Shown here one piece after another: positions 4,762 to 29,791 of a stretch of 64,000 nt of DNA. Position 1 is the first letter of the stretch. Every line of letters starts with the position of its first letter. Under the pieces are notes generated by a model. It ran no database searches. It saw only the letters and a program-made list of their open reading frames with translations, and was not told the origin of the DNA. Both the position numbers and the translations under genes were made by a program. Source of the DNA: Ruminococcaceae bacterium AM07-15 (GTDB lineage: Bacteria > Bacillota > Clostridia > Oscillospirales > Butyricicoccaceae); contig QUDE01000007.1 in assembly GCA_003477405.1 (NCBI GenBank), positions 62,001-126,000 of the forward strand, written 5' to 3'.

Positions 4762-4902
4762 GTGAAAGGTCTACCCGAGGAACGGTGTGCCGAACTGGCC
4801 CGATATATCGTGGAACACAATGCCACCGTACGCCAGGCCGCTCAGCGGTTCGGCATTTCCAAATCTACCGTACATACAGAAGTAACAAAAAAGAAATGCT
4901 AG
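4762..4902 (+). pseudogene. spoIIID: spoIIID 5' half, interrupted by the inserted element
   Basis: GTG start at 4762 with GGGAGG about 9 bp upstream. Codons 1-38 encode the N-terminal part of SpoIIID, the mother-cell DNA-binding regulator that acts between SigE and SigK. ARYIVEHNATVRQAAQRF and GISKSTVH match the SpoIIID helix-turn-helix of Bacillus. At codon 38 (CAT, 4873-4875) the match stops. The next nine codons are element DNA and end at TAG (4900-4902), giving a 46-residue product that lacks the end of the recognition helix and the basic C-terminus, so it should not work. The rest of the gene is at 29648-29791. A CATAAAAT stretch at 4719-4726 is a weak candidate SigE -10 box; I would not rely on it. 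Confidence 0.93.
4872..4876. other. Left attachment core (attL) of the spoIIID element
   Basis: ACATA occurs here inside spoIIID codons 37-39 and again at 29647-29651, and is the only identical stretch at the two junctions. Joining the left flank to the right flank through it gives ACC GTA CAT AAG GAT, which encodes T-V-H-K-D in frame as in intact SpoIIID. A short core like this is usual for large serine recombinases. Confidence 0.85.
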
Positions 4903-4999
4903 TTTGGATGATAACATAAAGCCACCTGGTCAATTTTGAAATAAAATGTCCTCAAAACTAGATAATATCTGAAAATAAAAATTGTTTAAGCTACCGATA

Positions 5000-5040
5000 G
5001 GGCTTGTTGTCTGTAAAGAGCAGACAGCAAGCCCTTTAAT
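5000..5040 (+). terminator. Terminator at the left end of the element
   Basis: A 14-bp stem (GGGCTTGTTGTCTG with CAGACAGCAAGCCC, one G-T pair) and 7-base loop, followed by TTTAATTTTT. In the integrated state it stops transcription coming from spoIIID. In an excised circle it would stop transcription coming from the recombinase. The rest of 4903-5216 holds no gene that I can see. Confidence 0.85.
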
Positions 5041-5216
5041 TTTTACTCCGACCTGTCTGTTGATGGTTATACAGTACCTCCCCTTCATAAAGTCAAACTA
5101 TCTTACTTCACTTTATGCAACAATAGTTTTACTTCAAATGTGAATATGGCTATTGCACCAAAGGTGTTAAGTATGCGAATAGAAGTTCCTGAGATGATAT
5201 GGGCAGAAATTCTAAA

Positions 5217-7787
5217 CTATAATTTAAGACCGCTAAAAATGAGCTCCAAATCTTCTTGCACAGTAGTTACAGACTCCAGACAATCGGCTTCGATGGCATT
5301 GAGCATAATCTGCTCTTTTTCGTACAGTCGAGTCAATATTTTGGCATCCAGAGAGAATGGCTCGTCCATATCTGTAATAAACTGCTGTTGTAGATAATAA
5401 TACTGGGTATATTGACCATCGGGTAGGCCTAAGCGGTGAATTCTATCCTTTGACTGCAACAAATGTATAAGATTATAGCTGTATTCAAAATAAATTGCAT
5501 CATGACAGGATTTATGTAACGAGACAGATTCGGCCAGGGTGTGTGGGTTGGTAATCAAGACATCAATATGGCCATCTCGAAAATCCGATATAATTTGCTG
5601 GCGTTCATCCATGCTGGTTTGACCATAGATGCATTCTACATGGATGCCTTTCTTCCACAAAGTACTGGCAATATGATTGATTGAGTCTACAAAGATACAC
5701 CAGATGATCACTGGCTTTCTCTGTGTAACCAGCTTTTCAGCCAGAGAAATACATGCACGGAATTTTGATGTGCTTCCAACAGAGTCAATGAGCTGTTTTA
5801 CATCCTCGGAGTAATCCACATAATCAATGTCCTCGATATCAGCAGCCGAAATGTCCAAAATGTCTGCAAAGTCAGACAGCTCCAGTTTATCAAGCAGCAT
5901 CGCAGGATTCGATTCCAACTGCAACAACCGGATAATAAGTGCCAGCTTATTCCTTGCGTATTTCAGTTGTAAGATATGAAAGAGTTGATTTTCTGCCTCA
6001 CTTGCAGATACTTCTTCAATAATATCTGGGTTTGCATTCGGAACTGCCAACTGCTGTTTTGTTGTCCGACAAAAGAATGGCTGGAGTTTTTTATTGATCA
6101 GATTGATATCATCTTGAGATGGAGCCTTAAGCTGCTGAGGACTAAATCCGAAGAATTCATCATACTCGTCGTGGTACAGAATGTTCAACAGGTTCCATAT
6201 ATCCGTATAGGAATTAGGAATCGGTGTACCGGTCAGAGCAATCGTATAAAACGCATTTTCAGCTAACTCCAAGGCTTTCCGGGCATTGCTTCCATCAATG
6301 GCCTTTACTTTATGTACCTCATCAAATACCAAAAGCGTTGATGTTCCCATCAGTTTTTGAACTTCCGGAAGATAGGAGCGCAAACAATCATAATTCAATA
6401 AAATAAGATTTGCACTGCCGCTTTCAAACAAAAGTGCCGTTCGCTTCTCGTCCGCTGTCTTATAGTTTGGATTATGGATGTTAAAAACCCGAAGCGGTAG
6501 CTTGTTACCAAAGCAGAGCTGAAATTCATCCTGCCAAGAGCCAAAGGAATTTTTAGGGCCAACCATTACAAGACGGCGTACCAATCCTTTGGCATAGAGG
6601 TATGCAAATACCCCCAGGACAGAAGCCGTTTTCCCAGACCCTGGGACAGAGAAATTGCAGGCTTTCTTCATCGTACACATGAAGAAAGAGTCCCACATCT
6701 GCTTTTCACGAAGTGGTCGGCTGAAAGCGCTATTTACAACGGCTTTGTAGTCTTCATATTTTTCGAGAACTTCCGGCTTGTGCTGCTTAATTGCCAAGCC
6801 AAGTCCTGCCCGCTTTTCTATATGTAGTTCCCGATCCGTGATGTATTTTCTAAGCCGGGATGTAACAAAAAAGCGGTATCCTCGTTTATCAGATTCGTTC
6901 TGCAATAAACTGATAATGCGGTTAAATTGTGGATATTTCAGTGTATTTTTGAAGGAAATGCGCTCATCTGTGCTTTTTGAAGTGTCCACAAACCGTTTCA
7001 GCCGCATTTTATAAAAGGCAGTATTCCAGAGTGGATTAGGGATTCCCTTGAAATCTAAGGTCAATACGCCATCGTAATCCAAAAGCATACAGTCTGTTTC
7101 CAACTGTAACGGATCGATAATCAGCTGACCTTTATTGTGCTTTTCCAACTCCTGATAGACGAGAGAGTCCATTTCAAGAACGCAAACATTTTCTGCCTGA
7201 TTGCTCCACAGTTTCTCAAAAGTCTGCTGGCTCTTGGTAATTTTGGAATAATCGAACGGTGACGCCTGCCAACTGCAGGTGATATCGAAAGCTTCATAGT
7301 TGGACTCAAAGGCAGCTGCGGTTTCGTTGTTGGACCCACGGAAACAGATGATATTTCCTTCTGCGTCTTCGACGATTCCAAACTTGTCGTGGAAAATGCC
7401 TTCCTGGGTAAAAGCAACCTTGATGTCGATAACTCCAAGACCCACCAAATAAGCCAAATTAGAGATATTTCTTTCTTCCTCAAGCGAGAGCGTTTCCCGC
7501 ATTTTGGAAACCAGTTCTTCTCTTAGGGAGGCTCGCAGCGCAAACCCCTCTTGAATTTGCAGATATTCTTCTTTTTCGATCTCTGCGGACACAATAAGCC
7601 GCATGGTGTGCCCATTTTGCGCAAAGCGCTCAAGACCTTTAGCGTAATTGGCAAGGGCCTTGGCAGAGAAATACGCTGTGGCACGGTCATAGCGCACACT
7701 CTCGGCCAACACAGGAGAGTAAAACTGTTCTCCCAAATTATCCTCATAAGAGGAATAGGTGGCTTGCAAAGATAAGTCCTTAAACAT
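5217..7787 (-). CDS. PLD-like nuclease domain fused to SNF2/DEAH helicase
   Basis: An 856-residue protein. The N-terminal ~230 residues form a phospholipase-D-like domain with an HKD-type motif (H133, K135, then GSNN at 151-154). The C-terminal part is a superfamily 2 SNF2-like helicase: Walker A VPGSGKT (381-387), DEVH box (489-492), motif III TGTP (519-522), and motif VI QSKDRIHRLG near residue 775. Nuclease plus DNA translocase is typical of anti-phage systems such as DISARM (DrmC/DrmD) and Mokosh, but the domain order and partners here match none that I can name. It starts at an ATG overlapping the stop of the ParB-like gene by one base (TAATG), so the two are translationally coupled. It is third and last in its operon. 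Confidence 0.88.
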   Translation of the reverse strand: MFKDLSLQATYSSYEDNLGEQFYSPVLAESVRYDRATAYFSAKALANYAKGLERFAQNGHTMRLIVSAEIEKEEYLQIQEGFALRASLREELVSKMRETLSLEEERNISNLAYLVGLGVIDIKVAFTQEGIFHDKFGIVEDAEGNIICFRGSNNETAAAFESNYEAFDITCSWQASPFDYSKITKSQQTFEKLWSNQAENVCVLEMDSLVYQELEKHNKGQLIIDPLQLETDCMLLDYDGVLTLDFKGIPNPLWNTAFYKMRLKRFVDTSKSTDERISFKNTLKYPQFNRIISLLQNESDKRGYRFFVTSRLRKYITDRELHIEKRAGLGLAIKQHKPEVLEKYEDYKAVVNSAFSRPLREKQMWDSFFMCTMKKACNFSVPGSGKTASVLGVFAYLYAKGLVRRLVMVGPKNSFGSWQDEFQLCFGNKLPLRVFNIHNPNYKTADEKRTALLFESGSANLILLNYDCLRSYLPEVQKLMGTSTLLVFDEVHKVKAIDGSNARKALELAENAFYTIALTGTPIPNSYTDIWNLLNILYHDEYDEFFGFSPQQLKAPSQDDINLINKKLQPFFCRTTKQQLAVPNANPDIIEEVSASEAENQLFHILQLKYARNKLALIIRLLQLESNPAMLLDKLELSDFADILDISAADIEDIDYVDYSEDVKQLIDSVGSTSKFRACISLAEKLVTQRKPVIIWCIFVDSINHIASTLWKKGIHVECIYGQTSMDERQQIISDFRDGHIDVLITNPHTLAESVSLHKSCHDAIYFEYSYNLIHLLQSKDRIHRLGLPDGQYTQYYYLQQQFITDMDEPFSLDAKILTRLYEKEQIMLNAIEADCLESVTTVQEDLELIFSGLKL

Positions 7788-9028
7788 TAGGCATCAAGTT
7801 CCCCTCTGATGCGGTTGAGCACCTCTTGAATCTGGTCCAGTCGATTCCGGACATCATCCTTTTGCTCTTCGTTCAATTTCTTGAAGATATTGGTGTCAAT
7901 GCTATCCAAAGTTTGGTATGCATCCTTGGCTTGCTGCGCAGGACGATTGCGAGTGGCATCACCGTCCGCTTTGCTGACCCATTTTTCTGTAGAGTGGGCA
8001 AACTCCTCCCGCAACACATCTTGAGTACGAATGTTTTCGTTGATTACCTTTGCGGTAATAACGGGTGTACCTTCCAGAGTGTCATAAACCTGTTCAGCCA
8101 ATTCGAGCTGTTCATCCAGGAAACCGGAAGAAAACTTGGAATTGGAAATGATTTTTCCTACTTTTCGGATATATCTTGTCATGTCTCCTCGCGGCTGCAT
8201 AAGAAGGTTCGCAAAAACAGCAAGTTTAATATCCTCTTTTTGCTCGTCGCTATGGCATTTTTTCAGGATTTTATATAACTCTTTCAAAGGGTCATTCAGG
8301 TTCATTTGCTTGGCCAAATAAAACTGCAGTGGCGCATTTATGGATTCCAAAAATTCAATCATCAATTTAGCTCGCTCGATGTCTGCCTTAATATCAGCCT
8401 CTGTTGCGTTAGTTCCAAGACAATGCAGGTATTCTTTAATCGTAAGTAGACTCTTCCCGTCTTCTCGTGTACAGATTAGATCGTTATATATACCGACAAG
8501 GCGGTCAATAGGGTCATATTCTACCGGCCGGTCTTGCCCTAATTGAATGGTTAATTCTAACTGTTTAATCTGTTTGGCGTTATGACCCAATGTGTGTTCC
8601 AATATGGATGCTTCAAAATATTGTTCTGCTCCTGTGCTCTCTTGAATATTTCTCAGGCATGCAAATCGGCGGTTTCCATCAATGACCCGACCGTCGGCTA
8701 AAACAACACCTGGATTCATTTGACCATAAACTTGAATGTTCCGCTGCGTGGTTTTCAGCCGTACCTCATTGCTTTTTACGATAAAATTATGGACCAGTGC
8801 GTTATACTGCGCGTCATGCTGTACGCTACCAATCAAATTGTGGGGATGTGTTGCATTATATTGACTAATATCGGTTGCGATTCGGTCATTCTGGTCATTG
8901 AAATATAAGAAATCCAGCCGAATGCGGTAGATTTCATAATCCTCATCTCTTCCATCAATCAACAATTTCTGTTTTCTTCCCGTTTTGATAACCGCATTTT
9001 GCGCAATGCCATCAATAAGTAAGTTCAT
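7787..9028 (-). CDS. ParB/Srx-fold nuclease-like protein
   Basis: A 413-residue protein. Residues about 85-125 contain the ParB/sulfiredoxin signature (MNPGVVLADGRVIDGNRR), in which GNRR is the usual nucleotide or nucleic-acid contact. The remaining residues are mostly helical with no other family that I recognise; the C-terminal 100 residues are highly charged and may bind DNA. ParB-fold proteins in defence loci act as nucleases, ATPases or CTPases (for example in DNA phosphorothioate systems). It sits between the alphaCTD-like gene (19 bp upstream) and the helicase gene (1-bp overlap), so the three are very likely one unit. Chromosome partitioning is unlikely, since no ParA is nearby. Confidence 0.82.
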   Translation of the reverse strand: MNLLIDGIAQNAVIKTGRKQKLLIDGRDEDYEIYRIRLDFLYFNDQNDRIATDISQYNATHPHNLIGSVQHDAQYNALVHNFIVKSNEVRLKTTQRNIQVYGQMNPGVVLADGRVIDGNRRFACLRNIQESTGAEQYFEASILEHTLGHNAKQIKQLELTIQLGQDRPVEYDPIDRLVGIYNDLICTREDGKSLLTIKEYLHCLGTNATEADIKADIERAKLMIEFLESINAPLQFYLAKQMNLNDPLKELYKILKKCHSDEQKEDIKLAVFANLLMQPRGDMTRYIRKVGKIISNSKFSSGFLDEQLELAEQVYDTLEGTPVITAKVINENIRTQDVLREEFAHSTEKWVSKADGDATRNRPAQQAKDAYQTLDSIDTNIFKKLNEEQKDDVRNRLDQIQEVLNRIRGELDA

Positions 9029-9047
9029 AATCGTCCCTCATTTTTAC

Positions 9048-11759
9048 TTAAATATTTTCAAAATACGCATCATAATCAACGAATATCTTTTCCGAGATAG
9101 AGTCATAATACATTTCGTTTTCACGCGCAGTCTCCATAAGTTTCCACACAGAACATTTAATCCGATATTCAGACCAAAGATAGTCTGCCAAATCATAGAT
9201 ATCCATTGACAGCGAATCTTGACTATACAAGATAACTTCTATCAGTCCAGCAAGCCGGACCTCCTGGCGGCCTTTCCTGAATAGGCGGGTTCCCCCCATG
9301 CGCTGATATGAGAACATATCTTTGTTCTCGGCAAGAAGAGACGCGTAAAACCAGTCATCAAATCCGTATTCGTCCAGTTTGTGCGCAAAGCCTGCTTTTT
9401 GCAGGGAGAATACGGTAAAAAATTCTCCGCCACTTACATACTCTGACACATCCTCGCAGAACCCTCTTAAATCCTCTTTTCCAATGCCGGCTTGATTCAA
9501 TTTGCGGATTTGTATGTAGCGCTGAGGAGCAAATTCAACAATTTCCATCTCCTCGCGCAGCTTATAGAGCTGGGAACAAAAAGTCACCGTTGAGAGAAGG
9601 CTTCTCTTAAAGGCGGAAATATCCACAATGTCCTGGTCCAGAAGTATATGCCTGAAATATTCGACTGCGGAATGATATTTGCCACTGACAACATAGTTGG
9701 AGTAAATGTGAAAGCCGAGATTTGTAATACTGTAACTGTTGAGCAGCCCCCTGTCCGCATCAGGAAAAAGACGCCGGTAGATCTCATGAAGCTCAGAAAG
9801 AAGATAGAAATCATCCGTCAACTCTCCTTTGAGTTTCTGAGCCATTACATCGGACATGGCAGGAGAGTCAATCCGATAGGTGTCCCCGTCCAAATAGGCC
9901 GCAATGCAACCTAAATAATTTGCCTTTACACTACTGCCCTTTATCCCATATTCCTCCTCATAGCGTTGGACAAAGTCTTCTTTGGAGATAGGAGCACACG
10001 AAAGTAGCAAGTCCATTACTTGCTGGTCACGGTTGAAATTACCAAACTCTATGGTCGGCATATGTTGGAACTGAATATTTGGATATGCTTCCTCTGTACA
10101 TATCTTCTTTAGCAAATTATGAAGCTCGTATTCATCCCGAATGTCATATTCCAGCATAAGTTCTGCGTGTTCGTTAAAAAGTTTAAGGGCAGAGATCTCA
10201 ATGTCAGTATACTGATTGAGATCTAATGTATCTAGCAGTTTAGTATAATCGTAAAGAAGAATAGGATAGTACCGCAGACGCTTCCATTGTTTCCACAGAA
10301 CATTCCTACTTGCGGCAAGCTTGTTCTCATATCCCCGACCACTTATCATGAGTTTAGAATTATCCGCGATACCCAAATCTGACAGTAGCGCATGATATTT
10401 TTCTACAAAAGAGCTAAAAGATATTTCATCGGCTGCATATTGCCGCAACGCATAGTCGCATAGGGCATCACGCTTGCAGGGAACAATGTTTGAACCGATT
10501 TGCACGCAATTTTTGTATGCGATGCGTTCTCCTGCACGCCGGAAGGCGATTGGAAAAGAGTCGTCATCCTTCAATTTTTCCGGTGGCAAATCACCGGCCT
10601 TATATGCGAGCTTAAGATATTCAAACACAGTATCATTTTCTTCAAATGCAAGCCGAAAATCATCTCGTGAAAAATCGTATTTCTGAAACACTTCGGTATA
10701 ACGGTCCTCATATAGTGTAGGTCGATTTTTTAATGAATCACGCTCTAATTGCCGAATGCGCTCACGCTGTACATTCAGTTCATTTCCAACATCCTCCAAT
10801 GTCCGACCACGCAGTCTTTCAGTCAAAACATACCCACGACGCTGATTCGCAAGCTGTGCTGCGTACTCAATGGCAGTCATTCTCTTGATGGCATAGTAGC
10901 CACCTTCGTTTCGCACTACTTTTTGGGTGGCGATGAGAAACCGCAAATTGGCGTCCAATACATCTGTTGGCACCAGAGCACAGATATCCGATACGCTTTT
11001 GAGATTGCATCCATATACTGATTTTTTTAAAATGGATAATATCTGGGCCTGAATCCCCCTTGCAAAGACCGGCGATGTAGAGATTGCGCGAATAAAGTCC
11101 GGGCTGTTTACAAGAACATCTTCACTCATATTTTCAGCAGAGTGTTCTTGAAAATAGATCTCACAGAGTGGGCTGATTTGCTCATAAAGGTCGTTTGCAG
11201 AAAGTGTATAAATAGAGGACAGTCGTTTCACCACTGATTGGCACAACCCATCAGAGGTTGTTAGTGGCATATCAGAGGAGGTCGCTGATGAATCTAAAGC
11301 GGGCTGCAGTAGACAGGTATCTCTCTTTTCAAGAATTTCTGTTACTGTTTTTTCGCCGACATTGTTCCACTTCTTTATTTCGTCACGAGTGAAGTGCTGT
11401 AGTTCCGAAAGAAAAGAAATATTTTGCCTTTTCAAGCAGTTGTAAGCCCTGTTCGACAGCCCCATCTGTTCAATGGGAATGTCTTGATACGCAATGCCAT
11501 CATCTCCTGTAAACGATGGCGCACTTTTGTGCTCCGTGGCTTCTTCCGGTGCAAAACCTGCTGCACAAACTTGTAGGCTTGCTTTTTTCTCAAGAATCTC
11601 CTGAATACTTTTCGCACCTAAATTCTTTATATTGTGCAGATCTACTTCAGACAGTGCATTAAGAGCCCCAATTGTTAATATACCCGCTCTATGGAGCGCA
11701 TTGTACGAGCGTGTGGAAAGGTTTAATTCCTTAATAGAATCAGATTTATGGTAAAACAC
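9048..11759 (-). CDS. Large protein with two RNAP alphaCTD-like repeats and sigma4-like HTH
   Basis: A 903-residue protein, first in the three-gene operon. Two N-terminal copies (about residues 8-59 and 95-146) match the helix-hairpin-helix fold of the RNA polymerase alpha C-terminal domain (IKELNLSTRSYNALHRAGI; IEQMGLSNRAYNCLKRQNI), each closing with LGAKSIQEILEKK or VGEKTVTEILEKR. Residues about 310-345 resemble sigma region 4 (RGRTLEDVGNELNVQRERIR), a DNA-binding helix-turn-helix. The remaining 550 residues are unfamiliar and mainly helical. It may recognise DNA or the host polymerase for the helicase and ParB-like partners, or regulate the operon. Function unknown. Confidence 0.82.
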   Translation of the reverse strand: MFYHKSDSIKELNLSTRSYNALHRAGILTIGALNALSEVDLHNIKNLGAKSIQEILEKKASLQVCAAGFAPEEATEHKSAPSFTGDDGIAYQDIPIEQMGLSNRAYNCLKRQNISFLSELQHFTRDEIKKWNNVGEKTVTEILEKRDTCLLQPALDSSATSSDMPLTTSDGLCQSVVKRLSSIYTLSANDLYEQISPLCEIYFQEHSAENMSEDVLVNSPDFIRAISTSPVFARGIQAQILSILKKSVYGCNLKSVSDICALVPTDVLDANLRFLIATQKVVRNEGGYYAIKRMTAIEYAAQLANQRRGYVLTERLRGRTLEDVGNELNVQRERIRQLERDSLKNRPTLYEDRYTEVFQKYDFSRDDFRLAFEENDTVFEYLKLAYKAGDLPPEKLKDDDSFPIAFRRAGERIAYKNCVQIGSNIVPCKRDALCDYALRQYAADEISFSSFVEKYHALLSDLGIADNSKLMISGRGYENKLAASRNVLWKQWKRLRYYPILLYDYTKLLDTLDLNQYTDIEISALKLFNEHAELMLEYDIRDEYELHNLLKKICTEEAYPNIQFQHMPTIEFGNFNRDQQVMDLLLSCAPISKEDFVQRYEEEYGIKGSSVKANYLGCIAAYLDGDTYRIDSPAMSDVMAQKLKGELTDDFYLLSELHEIYRRLFPDADRGLLNSYSITNLGFHIYSNYVVSGKYHSAVEYFRHILLDQDIVDISAFKRSLLSTVTFCSQLYKLREEMEIVEFAPQRYIQIRKLNQAGIGKEDLRGFCEDVSEYVSGGEFFTVFSLQKAGFAHKLDEYGFDDWFYASLLAENKDMFSYQRMGGTRLFRKGRQEVRLAGLIEVILYSQDSLSMDIYDLADYLWSEYRIKCSVWKLMETARENEMYYDSISEKIFVDYDAYFENI

Positions 11760-11918
11760 ATTCTTCGCCTCTTTACTTTTCGGAAATAACTTGGTTTTAT
11801 CATCTTTGCTTCAACTAAGAAATCTCCATTTATGTCCGTATCGTCTCGGAATAGGTATGTAAAAACAGTTTCCCTATTTGGTTAGTTTCTCCAAGTGGAA
11901 TATATGAATAGTCAAACT

Positions 11919-12689: not shown

Positions 12690-12742
12690 CTCATTATTCC
12701 TTCGCTTCCCCAACCTCATAAGTCAATGGAGCAGACCTTTGG

Positions 12743-12770
12743 TTGACTCTTTCTGATAAAATGGTATGAT
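12743..12770 (+). promoter_or_regulatory. Orphan SigA-like promoter
   Basis: TTGACT (12743-12748), 16-bp spacer, TATGAT (12765-12770), reading rightwards into a stretch with no intact gene. It may be left over from a lost gene. Confidence 0.4.
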
Positions 12771-15538: not shown

Positions 15539-15557
15539 TATGGCAAGCGAGGAACTC

Positions 15558-16562: not shown

Positions 16563-16602
16563 GAGTGCATCTTCCAACTCACATAGAAAAGGAGGAATGT
16601 AT

Positions 16603-20705: not shown

Positions 20706-20861
20706 AATTTCAAATTTGTATTACCGGAAAATTGATTTTACAGATATCGTAGGTACCTTAGTATAATAAACATTAGAAAGGAGGAATAAGAGCAATAGGT
20801 TACGAGCCAACTACCGGAAAGGCTCACCAACACCCTAATCCATCATCAGGAGGTACTGAAT

Positions 20862-22256: not shown

Positions 22257-22411
22257 TCTACTTTATACCATAAAAGCCAAGAAGTATAATTTTCAGCAAA
22301 TTTCTAAATGTGTTTATTGACATTTACGGGAAGGCGATATATCTCTATATCGCCTTCCCATATGCAAATTATTCCCCTTGTTTGAGTATAAAACAATCAG
22401 CTTACAATAAG

Positions 22412-23350
22412 CAACAAGAAGCAGCTCAAGGAGCTAGCTGGTGTAAAGTAGTGTAGAGGACACTTTCAACGAGCTACTAGAGACCATAGCAAAGAAGTTG
22501 ACTCAAGCAATTCGATACGAGCGTAATTATCATCAGCACTAGAGCTATTACAGCAGCTACTACAATCGCAACCTCACCACTACTCCTGTGGATGTTACAT
22601 TCAAAATACCTAAACTCAAGGAAATCTTCTTTGGGGGCTGCCATCATTGAGTGGTATCTCTACCGGGAAGGCAGTGTAGAGGGGGCTCCCATTGAGATGT
22701 ACCTGACTGGCGTAATAATCTGACATATGGTGGACATCATTAAGGTCCTCTGTATCCGTAAAGTCTCTCTCCGCTATCAGGAACTAAACAGGAAATCGTA
22801 TGTCTACATTGAGGATTGACGAAACCGTCCTCTACAGGACAAACGCTATTTGTATATCTATGTGGATGGAATCGAGTTGCACCGCAACAGGAGCGGGATG
22901 TTTAAAAATATATCCATTCTTGTGACAATTATAGTCAATGAAGATGGATATCGAGAAGTCTTTGGTTCTATTGATACTATGAAAGGGGACCAGGCTAGCC
23001 ATTAGCTCCGCAGGCATGACCTGGACTGCGTCAAACCGATGGTTGGAGACAAATACCTCGCAGCTAAGACTGTGGTCAAAGTTCCGAGGTCAAATACCAG
23101 TGCTGTACCGTCCACTTCCACCATAATGTATTCTCCGTTACTCCGTATTCTAAAGTGAAGCTGGTAGCTAAGATACTCAAAGCGATCCACACTTAGAAGA
23201 GCAAGAAAGCTGTCTGAGAAAAGGCAGACGGTAGTAGAAAGACTGTGCTCTATGAAGCTAAAAGAGACCTCCGCGAAAATGGAAAATAGCATTAAGGATG
23301 CCTCCGTTGCTAACTAATTTCATTTACAGCAGAGTCTGCAAACTAAAGTG
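22412..23350 (+). pseudogene. Decayed IS256-family transposase, N-terminal and central part
   Basis: A second relic of the same insertion sequence as at 18060-18840. Segments in different frames read TFNELLETIAKKLTQAIRYE, YYNRNLTTTPVDVTFKIPKL, YLYVDGIELHRNRSGMF, YQCCTVHFHHNVF and KVKLVAKILKAIH. It has many stops and frameshifts and lacks the NNVIERLN region through an internal deletion, though the terminal AESANxx segment resembles the end of copy one. The two relics share long stretches of near-identical bases (for example around 18115-18200 and 22880-22980). They flank the unknown gene and the CHAP hydrolase gene, both in plus orientation. Confidence 0.85.
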
Positions 23351-23380
23351 CTATTTTTTACTCTATATATGATAGAATAT

Positions 23381-24541
23381 TTACTTGAAAATTTTTCTGT
23401 ATTTCAGCAATTCCCCAGGTCTTTTATCAAATTTCTCTTGGAACTCTTCAAAGGTCATCGCTCCCTCTTCCACCTGCTCCAGTAACTCCTTGCCATACAG
23501 CTGCACTTGATTATATCGCCGCAGAATATCCGGATGCTGCTCTTTTCTCCGATGGGCTGCCATCTGTGTCCGGTTGCACACTCTTCGGTACAGCTTCTTC
23601 GCTTCATCCCGGCTGACTTTCTGCTGATGCTTGGACATGGCACCGATATTCTTGCATGTTTTTCCCTCTTTTCCTTCCACAGGCCGGTCACAATAACAAC
23701 TGACCACGGAATAAGGCTGAAAATAACGATTGCAGTAGGCGCACCGGCGGAGAAAAACCTCTTGGGCACAGACCATATCAAACTCCCAGATGGTGAGGGC
23801 AACCAAGCTGTCTGTGGCCATATATACATGGCCTTCCAGGTTCTGTCCGGTGGGCACCGGACCCGCAATGCCGGTATAGCTATAAACTTTGTGATTGCAT
23901 GAGAGATGAAACCTTGGTGACAATGCCTGATAGTTGTTTTCCACCCAAACCCGATATTTCCAATCCTTATATTGCAACTCAGCATACCGATGCAGAATAT
24001 CGCCTCGCTTCCCAGCATCGTCACCCATAACCTGATCCAAAAAGCATGCAAGATCTTTCTGATATTTTTGTAGCTGGACAAAAATTTCTACCACACAGCC
24101 CAGCCATTTTTGCAAACGCATGTGTGAAATAAGAATCTCCGTCCCATACTCCCGTGTCCCGTCCAGCACCCCCATGTATTGCAGTTCCTCGTCAGTCATA
24201 TTTACATTGATCAACTGATTTCTGATCTGCTGCTCTACCAATATTTTCAGCAAAGGATGCTTCTCCGATAATTCCGCTTTCAATCCGTGATACCAGGAAG
24301 CCACCCGCTGACCATATTCCACCTTCCACTGTTTTTCCTGTTTTTCTCGTTTCCAGCTTATTTTAGACAGAGCACATATGCGTTCTTCACGCAAGTGCTC
24401 TGTCTTTTCTATTTGTGCACCCCAGTCCACATCCAAAAATATAACCAACCACGAACCCAATGGCGTCTCTGCCACAGAAAAATTATTTTGACACACATAT
24501 TCTCGCTTATTTTCCAAGCTCATTTCATAATATGACGGCAC
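23381..24541 (-). CDS. DUF6076-like protein with zinc-knuckle motif
   Basis: A 386-residue cytoplasmic protein. The C-terminal region holds a probable zinc-binding cluster (RRCAYCNRYFQPYS, then CYCDRP and a further Cys in KTCKN) followed by a very basic helix. I associate this with the DUF6076 family often seen in clostridial mobile elements, at moderate confidence. The GTG start at 24541 has GGGGAGGGG a few bases upstream. It is divergent from the HTH-RepA-Mob operon across a 155-bp region containing repeats. Role unknown; a DNA-binding or replication-linked function would suit the position. Confidence 0.72.
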   Translation of the reverse strand: MPSYYEMSLENKREYVCQNNFSVAETPLGSWLVIFLDVDWGAQIEKTEHLREERICALSKISWKREKQEKQWKVEYGQRVASWYHGLKAELSEKHPLLKILVEQQIRNQLINVNMTDEELQYMGVLDGTREYGTEILISHMRLQKWLGCVVEIFVQLQKYQKDLACFLDQVMGDDAGKRGDILHRYAELQYKDWKYRVWVENNYQALSPRFHLSCNHKVYSYTGIAGPVPTGQNLEGHVYMATDSLVALTIWEFDMVCAQEVFLRRCAYCNRYFQPYSVVSCYCDRPVEGKEGKTCKNIGAMSKHQQKVSRDEAKKLYRRVCNRTQMAAHRRKEQHPDILRRYNQVQLYGKELLEQVEEGAMTFEEFQEKFDKRPGELLKYRKIFK

Positions 24542-24632
24542 TGCAACCCCTCCCCACTGTGTGTTGAACTATTTATCACAAAAATAATTTAACACATATT
24601 GCATCCTGTTTCAACCCGTTATATCCTGTTTT

Positions 24633-24687
24633 TGTACAAAGGAATATGGCCAATTCCTCTTAATTCAAATCGATTCTGTACAAAGGA
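24633..24687. repeat. Direct repeats TGTACAAAGGA upstream of the HTH/RepA genes
   Basis: TGTACAAAGGA occurs at 24633-24643 and 24677-24687, 44 bp apart; the first is part of the palindrome TTTGTACAAA. ATCCTGTTT also occurs twice just to the left (near 24603 and 24623). They may be operators or iteron-like sites for replication or excision control. The second copy includes the ribosome-binding site of the HTH gene. Confidence 0.5.
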
Positions 24688-24696
24688 GGATATTTT

Positions 24697-24927
24697 GTGA
24701 AGAAGGAAGAACTTCAAGAGCTCTACTCCATGCTGTTTTCCCAGTACCCCGACATCATCAATATTTCTCAGCTCCAAAAGATGCTGGGGATCAGCCGCCA
24801 TCTGGCCTATGACCTCATCAATCAAGGTCGTCTCACTGGAATCAAAATTGGTAACGCATTTAAGGTGCCCAAGATCAGCGTCATTCGCTATATTATGGAA
24901 CAGGAGGCAAATTCCCATGACTGTTGA
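24697..24927 (+). CDS. Excisionase-like helix-turn-helix protein
   Basis: 76 residues. Residues about 22-68 match the MerR-like excisionase HTH (ISQLQKMLGISRHLAYDLI, then IKIGNAFKVPK). The GTG start at 24697 has AAAGGAGG 8 bp upstream. It overlaps the RepA-like gene by 11 bp, so the two are coupled. In related elements such proteins assist excision or regulate the replication gene; here it is a candidate recombination directionality factor for the serine recombinase, which is inference. Confidence 0.82.
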   Translation: MKKEELQELYSMLFSQYPDIINISQLQKMLGISRHLAYDLINQGRLTGIKIGNAFKVPKISVIRYIMEQEANSHDC

Positions 24928-25936
24928 GCCATTATCCACTGTGGATGCTGATACGCTGCTGTCCTCACCTCTGCCTCAAACTGTGTTTCTGGTAGAAGAA
25001 TTGCTGCCGCAGGGAGTGCACATCCTTTGTGGCGCTTCCAAAATCGGAAAAAGCTGGCTGGTGCTTTGGCTGGCTTTGCAAGTAGCCCAGGGGCTGCCTG
25101 TCTGGGGACTGAAAACGCTTCCCTGCAAAGTCCTGTACCTTGGCTTGGAGGACACTCTCAGCCGCATTCAAGACCGGCTCTTTCGCCTGACAGACCAAGC
25201 TCCCCCAACCCTTCGGATTGGTACCTTGTGTCATCAACTGGACCATGGACTTCAAAATCAGATAGAACAATATCTTTGCAGTTTTTCCCATACTAAACTT
25301 ATCATCATTGATACCTTCCAAAAAATACGGGACAACACTATAAGTCGTGGCAGTCTTTATGCCGCAGATTACAAAGACATGTCCCTTCTCAAGCAACTGG
25401 CGGACCGCTACAATCTTTGTATTCTGTTGGTACATCATCTACGAAAGCTGACCGATACCGCAGATCCCTTTAACGAAGTTTCCGGATCCACAGGCCTTCA
25501 GGGAGCTGCCGATTCCACATTCATTCTAAAGCGCAACAACCGGGCCAGCGACGAAGCCATCCTTTTGGCAACTGGCCGGGATATTGAGTATCAACAGCTC
25601 ACACTGCGTTTTTCCCAATTTCGTTGGCATTTGGTGAGCCGAAAAGATGCCACTACTCTGGCCAAAGAAGAAATTCCGTCTTTTCTTTTTCGGCTTGCTG
25701 ATTTCGTCCGGCAACAGAAACACTGGGAGGGAAGCGCTACTGCACTGCTGGCAGCCATGGGAGAAACAGAGGTCACCGCCAACAATGTGGTCAAGCTTAT
25801 CGCCCGCTACTGGGAACGCGCCCTGGATCCAATGGGAATCACCTATACTTCTCATCGTACTGCGGCAGAACGCCGCATCTCCCTCACGGTCACCCATGAC
25901 GGCAATGACAGCAATGACGGCAAATACCCTATATAA
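24917..25936 (+). CDS. RepA-like AAA ATPase (hexameric RecA-fold)
   Basis: A 339-residue RecA-fold ATPase of the RepA/AAA_25 type, resembling plasmid replicative helicases. Walker A is ILCGASKIGKSW near residue 40; Walker B is LIIIDTFQKIRD; the conserved LLVHHLRK and SGSTGLQGAADST follow, as in the RepA family. ATG 24917 follows CAGGAGG by about 9 bp; a frame extension to 24809 lacks support. Placed between the HTH gene and the mobilization genes, it suggests the excised circle can replicate or that the ATPase aids transfer. A C-terminal helical segment (residues about 240-335) may bind DNA. Confidence 0.85.
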   Translation: MTVEPLSTVDADTLLSSPLPQTVFLVEELLPQGVHILCGASKIGKSWLVLWLALQVAQGLPVWGLKTLPCKVLYLGLEDTLSRIQDRLFRLTDQAPPTLRIGTLCHQLDHGLQNQIEQYLCSFSHTKLIIIDTFQKIRDNTISRGSLYAADYKDMSLLKQLADRYNLCILLVHHLRKLTDTADPFNEVSGSTGLQGAADSTFILKRNNRASDEAILLATGRDIEYQQLTLRFSQFRWHLVSRKDATTLAKEEIPSFLFRLADFVRQQKHWEGSATALLAAMGETEVTANNVVKLIARYWERALDPMGITYTSHRTAAERRISLTVTHDGNDSNDGKYPI

Positions 25937-25939
25937 AAA

Positions 25940-26110
25940 CAGCTGTCACAGTCGTCATCGCTGTCACACGGAAAAGGAACTGCCTTCTGAAAACCAGGAC
26001 ACCCTCACGGGTGTCCTGGAGGATAGCGAGCATAGGCTTTGTATTGCCATCAAAGCCGGCGGCATAGCCGAAAGGGGCTGTGCCCCTGTCACCCCTATAA
26101 TGAAGGAGGA
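25940..26110 (+). other. Candidate oriT region
   Basis: A non-coding stretch directly before mobC. It holds a perfect 11-bp inverted repeat with a 4-base loop (CCAGGACACCC / GGGTGTCCTGG, 25994-26019) and a second hairpin, GGGGC-TGT-GCCCC, near 26078-26090. Inverted repeats beside mobC and relaxase genes are typical of transfer origins. No T-run follows the first hairpin, so it is not a normal terminator. Confidence 0.5.
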
Positions 26111-26118
26111 CTCATTTT

Positions 26119-26424
26119 TTGAGACATAGAACCTGCGCTATTCAAATTCGCGTAACCGAAAAAGAAAAACAGCATATTATCCGCAACGCCCATCGCTGTG
26201 GGCTGAGCGTCTCCACTTATTTGCGAAAACTCAGCCTCGGAAAAGAAATCCAATCCGCTCCGCCCCTTGCTCTCTACCGGGTCTATACCCAGTTGACACA
26301 GCTGCAGCAGGAATACCCCAATTTGTCATCTGCCTCCATAGCGGAACGGTTGAAGACCATTTCACAGGCCCTGATGCAGGTCTGCTGCCACACAGAGAGA
26401 GGGGATGATCCCCAGTGGCCGTAA
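26119..26424 (+). CDS. MobC-like mobilization accessory protein
   Basis: 101 residues. The N-terminus resembles the ribbon-helix-helix of relaxosome proteins (IQIRVTEKEKQHIIRNAHRC, then GLSVSTYLRKLSLG), followed by the MobC-type helical tail. It starts with TTG at 26119, with GAAGGAGG about 9 bp upstream, and overlaps the relaxase start by 10 bp. It should bind oriT and help the relaxase nick DNA. Confidence 0.82.
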   Translation: MRHRTCAIQIRVTEKEKQHIIRNAHRCGLSVSTYLRKLSLGKEIQSAPPLALYRVYTQLTQLQQEYPNLSSASIAERLKTISQALMQVCCHTERGDDPQWP

Positions 26425-27797
26425 CAAAAATCTGGCCCATCAAAGACAGTATCCGCCGTGTGGTAGAGTACGCTGAAAATCATGAAAAAACCCAATGCAG
26501 CGATTTGGAGACCGTCATCCATTACGCCGGAAATAGGAAAAAAGCCGAACAAGACCAGACCATATTCGTCACCGGCATCAACTGTGGACGGGACACGGCT
26601 TTTCAGGAGATGCTGGCTGTCCAGGAGCGTTTTGACAAAACAGATGGCAATGTGGCCTATCATGCCTACCAAAGCTTTCCTCCCGGTGAAGTTTCACCGC
26701 AGCAATGTCACCAGATCGGCGTTGAGCTGGCCCAACAGCTATGGGGAGAACAACATCAGGTGCTGGTCGCCACTCATTTTAATACGGGCACCTATCATAA
26801 CCACTTTGTGCTGAACTCTGTCAGCTTTGTAGACGGCAAAAAGTTCAACTGCAATCGTGCCGCCTACCGTGCACTTTTTCAAGCTTCCGATACCCTATGC
26901 AGAAAATACGGTCTGTCTGTGATCGAACGCCCCGATGGAAAAACGCCCCGCAATCTTTATTTTGCTGAAAAACATGGGGAACCCACTCGATACAATCTCA
27001 TGCGTCAAGCCATTGACGAGTGCATCGGACTCAGCAGCAATTTGGATTATTTCCTGAAAAGCCTTGCCCGGCGTGGTTATATTCTGAATTGTGCCCCCAA
27101 CCGGAAATATCCCACTATCCGCACCATCAACAGCAAAAAATCTGTACGGCTGTATCAATTAGGCAAGGGCTACTCCATGCCTGAAATCCAGAAACGCATT
27201 CACCAACTGAACTGGGAGATCCAATATCCATCCTATCAGGCAGATTACCACTATTACAAAACTCTCAAGCATTCCCCCGTCCGAAAAATGAAAGTGCGGG
27301 GAAGTTTTAAAAAATCCAAAAAGATCACCGGATTTTTTGCCCTCTATCTCCACTACTGCTATTTTCTCGGTTTGCTGCCCAAAAAGAAAAAACATACTCC
27401 CCTATCTCCTCAGATGCGCGAGGCCTGCCGCCACCTGCAGCAATTCTCCCAGCAGTTTGAATTAGTGCACCGTGCACATCTCAACACACCGGAGGATGTG
27501 GAGCATTTCCTCGATCGGATTGCACGACAAATTCAGCAGTTGCAATCCCAGCGAACCCACTGTTACAATCGTCTTCGGCGTTGCAGCAATATAGAAAGCC
27601 GGACTGCACTATTGCAGGAACGGGACCAATGCACTGCGGCATTGCTGCCTCTGTACCGGCAGCGGAAAATTGCCCTGCGGATTCTCCACACCCGGGAGTC
27701 CATGTGTGCCAACCTGCGTGCAGAACAGAAACTCCGGCAATATCTGACCAAGCCAAAAGAACGCCAACATCACCGCAGTCAGTCCTATTCTCGCTGA
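26415..27797 (+). CDS. Relaxase (MobA/VirD2-type mobilization nuclease)
   Basis: 460 residues. The N-terminal ~200 residues form a relaxase domain with the three-histidine metal motif HFNTGTYHNHFVLNSV and a probable catalytic Tyr in the first 30 residues. The C-terminal half is basic and helical (KKSKKITGFFALY, with a later coiled-coil stretch around residues 340-450). The GTG start at 26415 lies inside mobC (10-bp overlap). It would nick oriT and lead single-stranded element DNA into a recipient using another element's conjugation channel, since no channel genes are present. Clostridial integrative mobilizable elements carry this gene set. Confidence 0.9.
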   Translation: MAVTKIWPIKDSIRRVVEYAENHEKTQCSDLETVIHYAGNRKKAEQDQTIFVTGINCGRDTAFQEMLAVQERFDKTDGNVAYHAYQSFPPGEVSPQQCHQIGVELAQQLWGEQHQVLVATHFNTGTYHNHFVLNSVSFVDGKKFNCNRAAYRALFQASDTLCRKYGLSVIERPDGKTPRNLYFAEKHGEPTRYNLMRQAIDECIGLSSNLDYFLKSLARRGYILNCAPNRKYPTIRTINSKKSVRLYQLGKGYSMPEIQKRIHQLNWEIQYPSYQADYHYYKTLKHSPVRKMKVRGSFKKSKKITGFFALYLHYCYFLGLLPKKKKHTPLSPQMREACRHLQQFSQQFELVHRAHLNTPEDVEHFLDRIARQIQQLQSQRTHCYNRLRRCSNIESRTALLQERDQCTAALLPLYRQRKIALRILHTRESMCANLRAEQKLRQYLTKPKERQHHRSQSYSR

Positions 27798-27835
27798 CCT
27801 CCGCATAGATTGAAACAGATCACGAGGAGGTGGCT

Positions 27836-28006
27836 GTGACTGTGGCAACACGCAAGCTGAACTATCGCTTTCATGACCCAAACCCACCGGCGGAAGCCGT
27901 CAACATTCTGCTGCAAATCTGTATTGATGCCAACCGCACCAAAGTAGAAGCCGCCATGAAACATATCACTTCCCATCCCACAAAACCGCTACATACAAAA
28001 CCATAA
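27836..28006 (+). CDS. Small conserved-looking protein between relaxase and recombinase
   Basis: 56 residues, with a GTG start and GAGGAGG 5 bp upstream. The start TRKLNYRFHDPNPPAEAVN and the helix ILLQICIDANRTKVEAAM look like a real small protein, and a terminator follows 6 bp after the stop. Similar small ORFs stand next to serine recombinases in clostridial mobile elements, from memory. Function unknown; a recombination accessory role is possible. Confidence 0.7.
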   Translation: MTVATRKLNYRFHDPNPPAEAVNILLQICIDANRTKVEAAMKHITSHPTKPLHTKP

Positions 28007-28011
28007 TGTTT

Positions 28012-28043
28012 TGGGCTTTGTCTCTGACAGGGCCCATTTTTTT
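28012..28043 (+). terminator. Terminator of the mobilization operon
   Basis: An 11-bp stem (TGGGCTTTGTC with GACAGGGCCCA, two wobble pairs) with a 3-base loop, then seven T's. It separates the recombinase gene from the genes upstream. Confidence 0.85.
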
Positions 28044-28045
28044 GC

Positions 28046-28074
28046 TTGCCTTTCCTACATCACAAGTTTATAAT
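28046..28074 (+). promoter_or_regulatory. SigA-like promoter of the serine recombinase
   Basis: TTGCCT (28046-28051), 17-bp spacer, TATAAT (28069-28074), 42 bp before the start codon. No convincing SigE or SigK box was seen in the 70-bp leader. Confidence 0.6.
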
Positions 28075-28116
28075 AGTCGTAACAGAATGACCATCATCAT
28101 ATAGAGAGGTATTTCC

Positions 28117-29652
28117 ATGAAACTTGCCGCTTACTGTCGTGTTTCCACAGACAAAGAAGATCAGCTCAACAGCCTGGAAGCTCAAAAACAATTTTTCACT
28201 GAGTATACCCAACGCACTGGCGATGTATTGGTACGGCTTTATGCCGATGAAGGAATTTCCGGCACCAAAATCAAAAACCGCAAGGAATTTCTACGGATGA
28301 TGAAGGACGCTGAGCAGGGTCTGTTTGATATGGTCGTGGTCAAGGACATCTCTCGCTTTGCCAGAAATACTGTGGATCTTTTGCAGAACATCCGCAAACT
28401 GAAATCTCTCGGTATTGAAACGCAATTTCTCACGGCCAACATGACCAGCATGGGCAACAGCGAATTTGTACTGACCATCTTTGGTGCATTGGCCCAAGAA
28501 GAAAGCGCCAATACTTCCAAGCGAGTCAAATTCGGAAAAAAGCTCAATGCGGAGAAGGGACGGGTCCCCAATCTAGTTTATGGCTATGACAAAACCATCG
28601 GGGATTACTTCCACCTCACCATCAACGAAACCGAGGCCAACGCCATCCGGCAGATCTATCAATGGTACACCCAGGAAGGGTATGGTGCGTCAAAAATTGC
28701 TGCCATGCTCAACGATCGTGGCCTGAAAACAAAACGCAACTGTCAATGGAGCCAGAATGCTGTCTGCCGAATCCTTACCAATGAGCTGTATACAGGAAAA
28801 GTGATCAACGGCAAAGAAGAAGTAGCGGATTTTCTCACGGGACGCCGTGCCGAAAAAGATGAAACCCAATGGCTGGTAGTAGACAAGCCCGAGCTGCAGA
28901 TCATCCCGCCAGAGACCTTTGAGCAGGCACAACAAATCATGCAGGCCCGGGGGAAATCTTTTCGGGTGGACAAGGAGCGGCAGAGCAACAAGTATCTGTT
29001 CTCCACGCTCATTAAATGCAAAGAGTGCGGTTTGTCTTTCCGGCGCATCGTCCGCACTTATAAAAACACCTATGTCCGCTGGGTCTGTTCCGGCCACAAT
29101 GGAAAAGGCGCCCATTCCTGTCCCAACGCTGTGACTGTGGAAGAAGATGAGCTGATCGATGTACTGCAAGAATACTTTACTCATCTTCTCCAGTCCAAAA
29201 AACAGGTAATCCGTCATGTGGTTGGAGAGTTCCAACGGATCTACAAAGCCAAGGATGACAACCTGCATTATGAAAAAGAATTGACCACTCAACTGGCCAA
29301 ATTGCAAAAGACCAGGCAGAAATATATGGATATGTATGCCGATGACCTAATTTCCCGTGAAGAACTCAACGAGAAAATCGGCGGAATGCGCAAAGAGATG
29401 GATCGGCTGGAAAATGAGCTGAAAATGGTATCCTATCACCTCACCAAAGGCGATCAGCTGGAAGCCATTCTTCAGGACACCTTCCGGCAGATCGAAGACA
29501 TCGCCGATGTGCGGCAGATGACTAACGCCCAACTGAAACGGATCATTCAAAAAATCGAAGTGGACAAGGATGGGAATGTGGATATCTATCTCCGCCTGCT
29601 GGGTGATCTGGGCCTGGACGATACCATTCTAATTCATAACGACGAAACATAA
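28117..29652 (+). CDS. Large serine recombinase (integrase/excisionase of the element)
   Basis: 511 residues. The N-terminal resolvase domain contains YCRVSTD with the nucleophile Ser10, plus DEGISGTK and VKDISRFARN. A recombinase domain follows (residues about 160-270, GYGASKIAAMLNDRG), then a zinc ribbon (IKCKECGLSF, then WVCSG and SCPNA) and a coiled-coil segment (about 370-450) that usually controls directionality. It should catalyse integration and excision through the ACATA core. Its TAA stop (29650-29652) overlaps the right core, so the gene ends at the element boundary. The leader has GAGAGG 8 bp before the ATG. The architecture is like the SpoIVCA-type recombinases that excise skin elements. 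Confidence 0.95.
   Translation: MKLAAYCRVSTDKEDQLNSLEAQKQFFTEYTQRTGDVLVRLYADEGISGTKIKNRKEFLRMMKDAEQGLFDMVVVKDISRFARNTVDLLQNIRKLKSLGIETQFLTANMTSMGNSEFVLTIFGALAQEESANTSKRVKFGKKLNAEKGRVPNLVYGYDKTIGDYFHLTINETEANAIRQIYQWYTQEGYGASKIAAMLNDRGLKTKRNCQWSQNAVCRILTNELYTGKVINGKEEVADFLTGRRAEKDETQWLVVDKPELQIIPPETFEQAQQIMQARGKSFRVDKERQSNKYLFSTLIKCKECGLSFRRIVRTYKNTYVRWVCSGHNGKGAHSCPNAVTVEEDELIDVLQEYFTHLLQSKKQVIRHVVGEFQRIYKAKDDNLHYEKELTTQLAKLQKTRQKYMDMYADDLISREELNEKIGGMRKEMDRLENELKMVSYHLTKGDQLEAILQDTFRQIEDIADVRQMTNAQLKRIIQKIEVDKDGNVDIYLRLLGDLGLDDTILIHNDET
29647..29651. other. Right attachment core (attR) of the spoIIID element
   Basis: ACATA is shared with 4872-4876. On its right, spoIIID resumes with AAG GAT GTC. 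It contains the last sense codon of the recombinase and the first two bases of its stop codon. Confidence 0.85.
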
Positions 29653-29791
29653 GGATGTCACCGAGCGGCTTCGGCTGACAAACCATCAGCTTTACGAACA
29701 GGTGAAAGCCGTTCTGGAGGAAAACAAGGCCGAGCGCCATATTCGCGGCGGCATGGCCACCAAGCGAAAATACAAGGAGCACCAGAACTGA
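29648..29791 (+). pseudogene. spoIIID: spoIIID 3' half
   Basis: Codons 38-84 of spoIIID, beginning at CAT (29648-29650) and ending with TGA (29789-29791). KDVTERLRLTNHQLYEQVKA completes the recognition helix, and AERHIRGGMATKRKYKEH is the conserved basic C-terminus (Bacillus has IRHLRGGEATKLKYK). There is no start codon or ribosome-binding site of its own, so it cannot be translated while the element is present. Joined to 4762-4872 it gives an 84-residue SpoIIID with all conserved parts. Codon use is GC-rich, like the host and unlike most of the element. No disabling mutation is visible in either half, so function has probably been under recent selection. Confidence 0.95.

Follow-up and report, generated by a model that had tools for sequence, protein, structure and literature searches.

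Elements that interrupt sporulation genes are described in the open-access literature for sigK, spsM, spoVFB, gerE, yabG, spoVR and kamA. The subject of this study is an element that splits spoIIID, a small mother-cell regulator gene, in a 64,000-nucleotide stretch of Ruminococcaceae bacterium AM07-15 (contig QUDE01000007.1, positions 62,001 to 126,000), the whole of which is called the window below. The nearest precedent is the skin element in sigK of C. difficile (CD1231, CD1234), for which the passages of PMC5025042 on excision describe a constitutively expressed recombinase and a factor confined to the mother cell, where its production depends on sigma-E and SpoIIID; excision requires both recombinase and factor. 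The two systems are alike in having a large serine recombinase with a promoter that is sigma-A there and sigma-A-like here, a small protein with one that is sigma-E there and sigma-E-like here, and a split mother-cell gene. They differ in that the target is sigK there and here is spoIIID, one step above sigK, and in that the window's element carries relaxase genes, unlike the C. difficile skin. Our candidate factor, at 56 aa, is likened to CD1234 by size and not by sequence; we take CD1234 as 53 aa because PMC10747680, in the passage comparing it with the yin factor, gives the two as 53 and 72 aa. CD1234 moreover needs SpoIIID, according to the same passages on skin, which would be impossible for the factor of an element in spoIIID: because SpoIIID is the product of excision, expression of that factor must be SpoIIID-independent.

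The gin element in gerE of Bacillus cereus ATCC10987 (GirC, GirX) is likewise not a phage, is 28.6 kb long, splits a small mother-cell regulator gene and has an integrase together with a directionality factor. Its target and host are different, however, and the sections of PMC5595907 that deal with its gene content list three recombinases and no structural genes for conjugation; the gin recombinase is described there as sporulation-specific, whereas that of the spoIIID element appears to be driven by sigma-A. SPbeta in spsM, vfbin in spoVFB, yin in yabG and the elements in spoVR and kamA are also site-specific and also occupy mother-cell sporulation genes, but as the relevant passages of PMC6957869 and PMC10747680 present them, none is in spoIIID, most are prophage-like and the hosts are Bacillus or C. 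botulinum. PMC5027557, in the part that bears on the gene, concerns a phage carrying a spoIIID gene and not an insertion in it. An earlier reading of the window (the original prediction) knew of no described spoIIID case, and we found none in the open-access full-text literature, a scope that leaves aside most subscription papers and all bioRxiv preprints.

We propose, with a probability of roughly three in four, that spoIIID is interrupted in its His38 codon by what is likely an integrative mobilizable element, whose recombinase excises it in the sporulating mother cell, once a factor with a sigma-E-like promoter has been made, and so restores the gene. In growing cells the recombinase would be made from its sigma-A-like promoter and would keep the element integrated. 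The factor, made in the mother cell from the sigma-E-like promoter, would switch the recombinase to attL x attR recombination and so to excision early in the life of the mother cell, and the rejoined gene would then make SpoIIID, which would act on its targets including sigK. Expression of sigK depends on SpoIIID in both B. subtilis and C. difficile, as stated in the pertinent passages of PMC3789822 and PMC5025042. The element would be inherited because the forespore keeps it, and it would lose nothing by excision in the mother cell because that cell dies, an argument already made in print for such elements (in a passage of PMC6957869). The principle would be that of skin and gin; the control point, which lies earlier, and the host group are new, the element is likely mobilizable and the family of factors is unnamed.

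The interrupted spoIIID gene and its attachment sites

The features on which the argument depends are the following.

4762..4875, plus strand: 5' part of spoIIID, codons 1-38, GTG start; His38 is CAT at 4873-4875
29648..29791, plus strand: 3' part of spoIIID, codons 38-84 plus stop
4873..29647, no strand: inserted element of 24,775 bp; CA both at 4873-4874 and at 29648-29649
4848..4899, no strand: attL, consisting of host arm, CA and element arm TACAGAAGTAACAAAAAAGAAATGC
29623..29674, no strand: attR, consisting of element arm, CA and host arm; overlaps the 3' end of the recombinase gene
28117..29652, plus strand: large serine recombinase, 511 aa, with Resolvase, Recombinase and Zn ribbon domains

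The original prediction placed both halves of spoIIID at these positions, and we confirm this; the halves are on the same strand. Joining 4762..ACATA to ..29791 gives an 84-aa protein, VKGLPEERCAELARYIVEHNATVRQAAQRFGISKSTVHKDVTERLRLTNHQLYEQVKAVLEENKAERHIRGGMATKRKYKEHQN, which scores 117.8 bits against the TIGR02844 equivalog cut-off of 111.5. It also matches chain 2l0k, a solved SpoIIID structure, over residues 6-82 (E 8.7e-21). The nearest genome by rpoB (97% DNA identity over 2,501 bases, with 370 genomes of the order scored) supplies the empty site. In this genome, G411 (G, C and L numbers are our handles for genomes, contigs and loci), the sole spoIIID match is uninterrupted, 84 codons long and 98% identical over 84 residues. 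Its locus, L176, has the same flanks, aligning to window positions 2677-4054, 4693-4876, 29647-29885 and 29948-30743, and lacks the insert; window 4693-4876 is 93% identical to the uninterrupted gene. The joined SpoIIID and the empty site in G411 both indicate that precise removal of the element from within this sporulation gene restores the reading frame. With the cut placed at CA in the His38 codon the element measures 24,775 bp (4873 to 29647), in agreement with the 24.8 kb of the original prediction, which had looked to relatives for an uninterrupted gene of about 84 codons and had seen a serine recombinase at the right boundary; the latter, recognisable as a large serine recombinase by its Resolvase, Recombinase and Zn-ribbon architecture, ends inside the right attachment site. 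Its relatives in the PDB include a putative conjugative-transposon recombinase and YokA, which we take to be the SPbeta integrase. Adjoining spoIIID, at 4088-4675 and in a stretch unmatched in L176, is an open reading frame (ORF) that by eye is ATP-binding and kinase-like.

Across 50 left and 107 full right junction rows the majority arms mirror each other (ACCGTTCTAATTnGTnACnACCATA, CA, TATGGnnGTnACnAAATAGAACGGT), which gives a near-palindromic attP of ~52 bp, so that the element has both its own site-specific recombinase and matching attachment sites at its two ends. The left rows include a misregistered duplicate of L064 as well as L140, L142 and L144, whose ends are foreign to the family, and the right rows include duplicates; gapped matches were removed before the junction and open-frame analyses. 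Attachment sites of such recombinases are about 50 bp according to a passage of PMC5595907. In the same rows the CA of the His38 codon is near-invariant at both ends (98-100%), and the codon reads CAC instead of CAT at some right ends and a few left ends. The in-frame join of the halves stands, but the sharing of ACATA is partly coincidence: with CAC at some ends and CAT at others, CA alone is near-invariant. Judged by these junctions, the crossover dinucleotide is CA within the His38 codon. The attachment target encodes SKSTVHKD, which we presume to be the recognition-helix stretch of SpoIIID. At two left junctions in spoIIID, L140 (G298:C60) and L144 (G078:C159), the element end is of another kind (AAGGA.G.TGGTGTCATAATAAGAATAG) and lies slightly further downstream, by a few bases; it apparently belongs to a second element family that uses spoIIID.

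Candidate directionality factor and the two promoters

Upstream of the recombinase gene lie a small gene and two promoter-like sequences.

27836..28006, plus strand: candidate recombination directionality factor of 56 aa; GTG start preceded by AGGAGG; family without a name in Pfam and NCBIfam
27783..27811, plus strand: sigma-E-like promoter of the candidate factor, TCCTATT-N14-CATAGATT, scoring 11 of 13
28046..28074, plus strand: sigma-A-like promoter of the recombinase, TTGCCT-N17-TATAAT, read by eye in the window, the family pattern being scored

No universal gene except the recombinase was seen in the listed ORF clusters of 16 small elements; the ~57-aa protein was found by reading nine small elements and then building a profile. 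Its signature is KLNYRFHNPN...ADYLLKILIEAN..KVE.AI. The profile finds the protein in every one of the 37 loci whose sequence extends over 9 kb ahead of the recombinase; the proportion is 45 of 46 where it extends over 5 kb, 60 of 65 over 1 kb and 68 of 75 over 300 bp. The small gene stays with the recombinase at the two loci outside spoIIID as well (L003, L010), and eight elements of 3.7-6.0 kb keep both genes, with no relaxase recognised by eye among their ORFs. Five members including that of the window had no Pfam family above cut-off and no NCBIfam match, and among the 120 listed of 218 homologues a source name is rare and always denotes a hypothetical or uncharacterized protein. The protein is similar in size to known directionality factors, which a passage of PMC10747680 gives as 53 and 72 aa. 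One element, L064, has two copies of the gene, at 7751 and 8986.

The pattern [AC]TATT-N13-15-CATA occurs upstream of the small gene in 44 of 64 cases, with a spacer of 14 in 43 of the 44, where the expectation was a mean of 0.26 and a maximum of 3 in 200 resamplings; it occurs in 1 of 78 recombinase upstreams. The 64 were selected from 74 hits as having a clear anchor and at least 130 bases ahead of it, after removal of one duplicate; some of them are near-identical. The sigma-E consensus of B. subtilis is KMATATT-N14-CATACANT, and our scores are relative to it. That of C. difficile is very similar to it, according to the corresponding passage of PMC3789822. By this measure the small gene scores 9.75 versus 8.17 for shuffled sequence, spoIIID 10.23 versus 8.16 and spoIVA 9.10 versus 8.08. 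A sigma-E promoter on the recombinase was considered and rejected (8.67 versus 8.52 shuffled); a sigma-A-like pattern is present there instead, with such pairs in 22 of 78 recombinase upstreams against 3.7 expected. By consensus matching, then, the factor promoter is sigma-E-like with exact spacing and the recombinase promoter is sigma-A-like. Just past the -10, at 28079-28089 in the window and in many recombinase upstreams, there is a conserved GTAACAGAACG-like box which by eye resembles the attachment arm GTnACnAAATAGAACGG, and this likeness suggests possible autoregulation, with the recombinase binding at the promoter of its own gene.

Hosts, gene content and condition of the split gene

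A scan of one genome per species returned 233 relatives of the recombinase, of which 80 loci were kept. The spoIIID 3' part lies directly downstream of the recombinase in 77 of the 80 (76 ungapped plus the truncated L037); two of the others, L003 and L010, are outside spoIIID, and the third, L067, is on a contig that stops inside the junction, three bases beyond the recombinase match. Carriers at spoIIID include records of Blautia, Extibacter, Schaedlerella, Agathobaculum, Pseudoflavonifractor, Flavonifractor and Angelakisella; among them are the cultivable strains Schaedlerella arabinosiphila DSM 106076 (L029, whose element measures 5.3 kb), Extibacter muris DSM 28560 (L039) and Agathobaculum butyriciproducens DSM 100391 (L026). 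Twenty carriers taken from the 80 loci were searched as whole genomes, and no full-length spoIIID copy was found in any of them: 19 had exactly two SpoIIID matches (E <= 0.001), one N part and one C part, on one contig and strand in 18, the twentieth being the genome of L003.

Genome samples gave a similar picture, the family labels being our assumption. Among 300 genomes taken as Oscillospiraceae, 21 had two or more weak partial SpoIIID matches and 18 show the split; by coordinates, the two parts share a contig and strand in 13 of these and fall on separate contigs in 5. G131, G308 and G128 were dropped, their matches lying at contig edges or reading through. Among 299 genomes taken as Lachnospiraceae, 20 had two or more matches, none better than ~1e-28, and about 20 are split-like as judged by the number and strength of matches, the junctions having been inspected for G010 and G013 only. 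The original prediction, which spoke of one genome, understated the case: the split is not a one-off but recurs across both families.

Both halves of the gene are generally open. In the C parts, 107 of 109 rows (94 distinct) have an unbroken frame that reaches a stop after 45-59 codons, and the two exceptions represent a single locus truncated at the end of its contig; in the N parts 48 of 49 rows are open to a start codon, the exception, L120, beginning at a contig edge. Only L037, L067, L003 and L010 of the 80 recombinase loci are missing from the ungapped C-part matches, and frameshifted copies are possibly under-counted in the survey loci because gapped alignments were dropped. The pair L029/L035 shares its insertion and inner genes, with 91% identity in the block of small gene and ATPase, 86% in the recombinase and 83-87% in the flanks. 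Of the differences between the two in spoIIID, 13 are synonymous and 2 nonsynonymous. This pattern indicates that the halves are under strong purifying selection in this pair with an old shared insertion. The ratio pN/pS of the C part is 0-0.12 in most pairs whose recombinase and flank are about equally diverged and 0.27-0.29 in two more distant pairs, values that come from 16 hand-chosen pairs, 15 of them from the comparison of recombinase and flank, with weight given to pairs with evidence of a shared insertion. Among unselected pairs with 0.05 < pS < 0.5 the median is 0.41 for C parts (50 pairs) and 0.39 for N parts (36 pairs); this sequence-wide measure, in which the constraint is much weaker than in vertical pairs, was given less weight.

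SpoIVA is present in 32 of 32 split genomes tested and in 17 of 18 uninterrupted ones, the 32 including five with spoIIID parts on two contigs; G308 was searched for SpoIVA and not counted as split. In G002 the spoIVA match is in two pieces (C20:236830-237279 and C20:489491-489769) that are 252 kb apart on one scaffold and strand, and we are undecided among a second interrupted gene, a rearrangement and a scaffolding error.

The remaining genes of the window's element are as follows.

26415..27797, plus strand: relaxase, PF03432
26119..26424, plus strand: NikA-like mobilization accessory protein, PF21983
24809..25936, plus strand: AAA_25 ATPase (Pfam), presumably RepA-like
24697..24927, plus strand: HTH_17 protein (Pfam), 76 aa
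5217..11759, minus strand: cargo of three ORFs, a PLD plus SNF2 helicase, an unmatched 413-aa ORF and a 903-aa protein with RNAP alpha-CTD domains
16507..17760, plus strand: cargo protein kinase, PF00069; PADLOC mad6 / PD-T4-6-like

The relaxase (PF03432) and the NikA-like accessory protein (PF21983) are the reason for regarding the insert as probably an integrative mobilizable element. Fifteen ORFs of the window, not its full set, were compared with Pfam, and among these there were no type IV secretion (mating-pair) genes and no phage structural or replication genes, the latter as seen by Pfam and not by PHROGs, which was not searched. In the cargo, the PLD/SNF2 helicase has partial matches to the anti-phage-type PbeA and ZorD, and the kinase resembles the anti-phage mad6 more strongly (E 1e-54); a CHAP/ricin-lectin protein, a DUF6076 protein and unmatched ORFs are also present.

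Cargo varies between elements, and lengths run from 2.6 kb (L132) and 3.7 kb (L069) up to about 35 kb (G006). A nucleotidyltransferase/HEPN-like pair is kept in the small elements L055, L064, L068, L069 and L073; in L069, the only one of the five that was run, the first ORF of the pair matches PADLOC PDC-S09 and the second is unmatched. An AbiLi-like ATPase is kept in L018, L029, L035, L036, L047 and L061, five of which have an AbiLii-like partner (L029 alone was run). By these resemblances both sets are addiction or defence cargo of small elements.

Proposed excision and its alternatives

The split, the empty site in a relative, the symmetry of the attachment sites, the two intact halves and, by consensus matching, the two types of promoter can be read directly from the DNA, and to this extent the original prediction of a skin-like element at a new target is borne out. 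It is supported only in part, since excision was never observed, a second spoIIID copy may be present in the window's own genome, and some relatives, including the two outside spoIIID, behave as ordinary mobile elements. Several observations weigh against excision in the mother cell. No attB plus attP pair was found from one strain, and no circular form was detected, a scan of viral contigs for the attP pattern being empty. The strict pattern of the small gene is upstream of only 6 of 47 spoIIID and 3 of 20 spoIVA genes, the upstream of the window's own spoIIID scores only 9.0, and the -35 variant CTATT deviates from the consensus ATATT. The ~57-aa protein is a candidate directionality factor by co-occurrence, size and promoter only, and its predicted fold (one helix, pTM 0.42) gave no structural match. 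The left distal element arm of the window, AAAAAGAAATGC, deviates from the family consensus AAATAGAACGGT, so that this copy might excise poorly, and because the sister G411 is without the element it may be young in the window's lineage, too young to demonstrate a maintained function. L003 (9638-12077), from Christensenella sp., is in a methyltransferase-like ORF, a natural secondary site, and keeps the candidate factor and its promoter motif although it is outside spoIIID; its genome gave no SpoIIID and no SpoIVA match, and since the element is present there its survival can be independent of sporulation. L010 adjoins a coding region read by eye as WYL-like. In several pairs the recombinases are far closer than the flanks (L047/L051: flank 74%, recombinase 95.5%). 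Finally, the 2.6-kb element L132 (G058:C111:11900-15016) is mostly recombinase without an ATG, GTG or TTG start; no small gene was detected in it, and it is possibly a decaying copy.

One alternative is an ordinary integrative mobilizable element that has spoIIID as its attachment site and is excised at random or for transfer rather than on a sporulation signal, with enough cells losing it for sporulation to proceed. The relaxase and NikA-like genes, the horizontal movement in several pairs, the two relatives outside spoIIID and the cargo that differs between elements are all in keeping with that explanation. Over the whole family the congruence of recombinase and host flank is mixed (Spearman 0.26, 113 pairs, a few of them one genome fetched twice), and because of this neither pure vertical descent nor pure mobility can describe its history. 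However, an ordinary element would not readily account for a sigma-E-like promoter, with a score close to that of spoIIID itself, on a conserved small gene, for the eight elements of 3.7-6.0 kb that retain recombinase and small gene with no recognised relaxase, or for how strongly the two parts of spoIIID are constrained where the insertion is old, and we regard it as unlikely. It is also quite improbable, in our judgement, that the insertion simply inactivated spoIIID in hosts that are losing or lack sporulation, with the halves left as relics. The lack of a full-length copy in the 20 carriers, the degenerate left arm in the window, the non-standard recombinase start of L132 and the uninterrupted gene of the sister species could all be explained in this way, but relics would not be expected to be open in every complete half found (among ungapped matches only), to have the low C-part pN/pS values of most vertical-signal pairs or even the 0.27-0.29 of two, or to reside in genomes that keep SpoIVA as regularly as uninterrupted ones do.

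Four assemblies, G231, G298, G282 and G144, hold an uninterrupted spoIIID together with a separate N part resembling a left junction. In G231 (L085, L141) the junction belongs to the family studied here and the two N parts agree in 93/93 bases; in G298 they agree in 105/105 but the element end is foreign, and G282 and G144 have 102/105 and 81/105. These double assemblies fit excision, and equally a mixture of strains or contamination. The G231 pattern could also point to a slow on/off switch, in which rare stochastic excision would produce heritable spore-capable and spore-incapable vegetative lineages as a form of bet-hedging. Since a metagenome bin that mixes strains, or a culture in which some of the cells have undergone developmental excision, would produce the same pattern, and the sigma-E-like promoter favours developmental timing, we give such a switch very little credence. 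An assembly artefact that joined two unrelated parts of a contig could be suspected from a single window, but the same junction is found in dozens of independent assemblies, including L022, L028 and L029 on contigs of 3.2-6.3 Mb; this recurrence refutes an artefact for the family and leaves it a negligible chance overall.

Programmed excision in the mother cell thus remains our preferred explanation, and we incline, somewhat more guardedly, to a broader view of it. A horizontally moving family of elements with anti-phage-type cargo has probably taken over the spoIIID node repeatedly, and in ~6-7% of the sampled genomes of each family (Lachnospiraceae and Oscillospiraceae) the cascade from sigma-E through SpoIIID to sigma-K would depend on a programmed excision of DNA, for which a factor from a new protein family, itself under sigma-E control, would be responsible. 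SpoIIID acts between sigma-E and sigma-K; were it gated by excision, the mother-cell cascade would involve a DNA rearrangement at an earlier point than in the other cases that we found. Spores are thought to carry many gut anaerobes between hosts, and when spore formation is called from genomes a split spoIIID could be scored as absent when it is in fact probably a working gene. With its roughly 80 naturally varying recombinases, one small candidate factor and one attachment site, the family also lends itself to tests of directionality factors, and it is a possible portable integrase system directed at a conserved codon of the recognition helix.

A second gene seems to be split in a comparable way in some members of the same bacterial group. 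A sigK-like gene is interrupted on one contig near TIGR02846 residues 109-120 in G017 (C23:4354-11758, L185), G170 (C4, L186), G274 (C28) and G098 (C1, L187). Its identity as sigK is tentative because the TIGR02846 profile also matches other sigma factors, with 2 of 52 genomes over the cut-off and 11 of 14 controls also giving a match. L185, L186 and L187 gave no tblastn match (1e-3) to the spoIIID recombinase and no match to the candidate-factor profile; like the spoIIID element, each has a Resolvase/Recombinase/Zn-ribbon gene between the two parts of the split gene. In G017, G170 and G274 spoIIID is split as well, and on the broader view given above sporulation in these three would probably need two DNA rearrangements.

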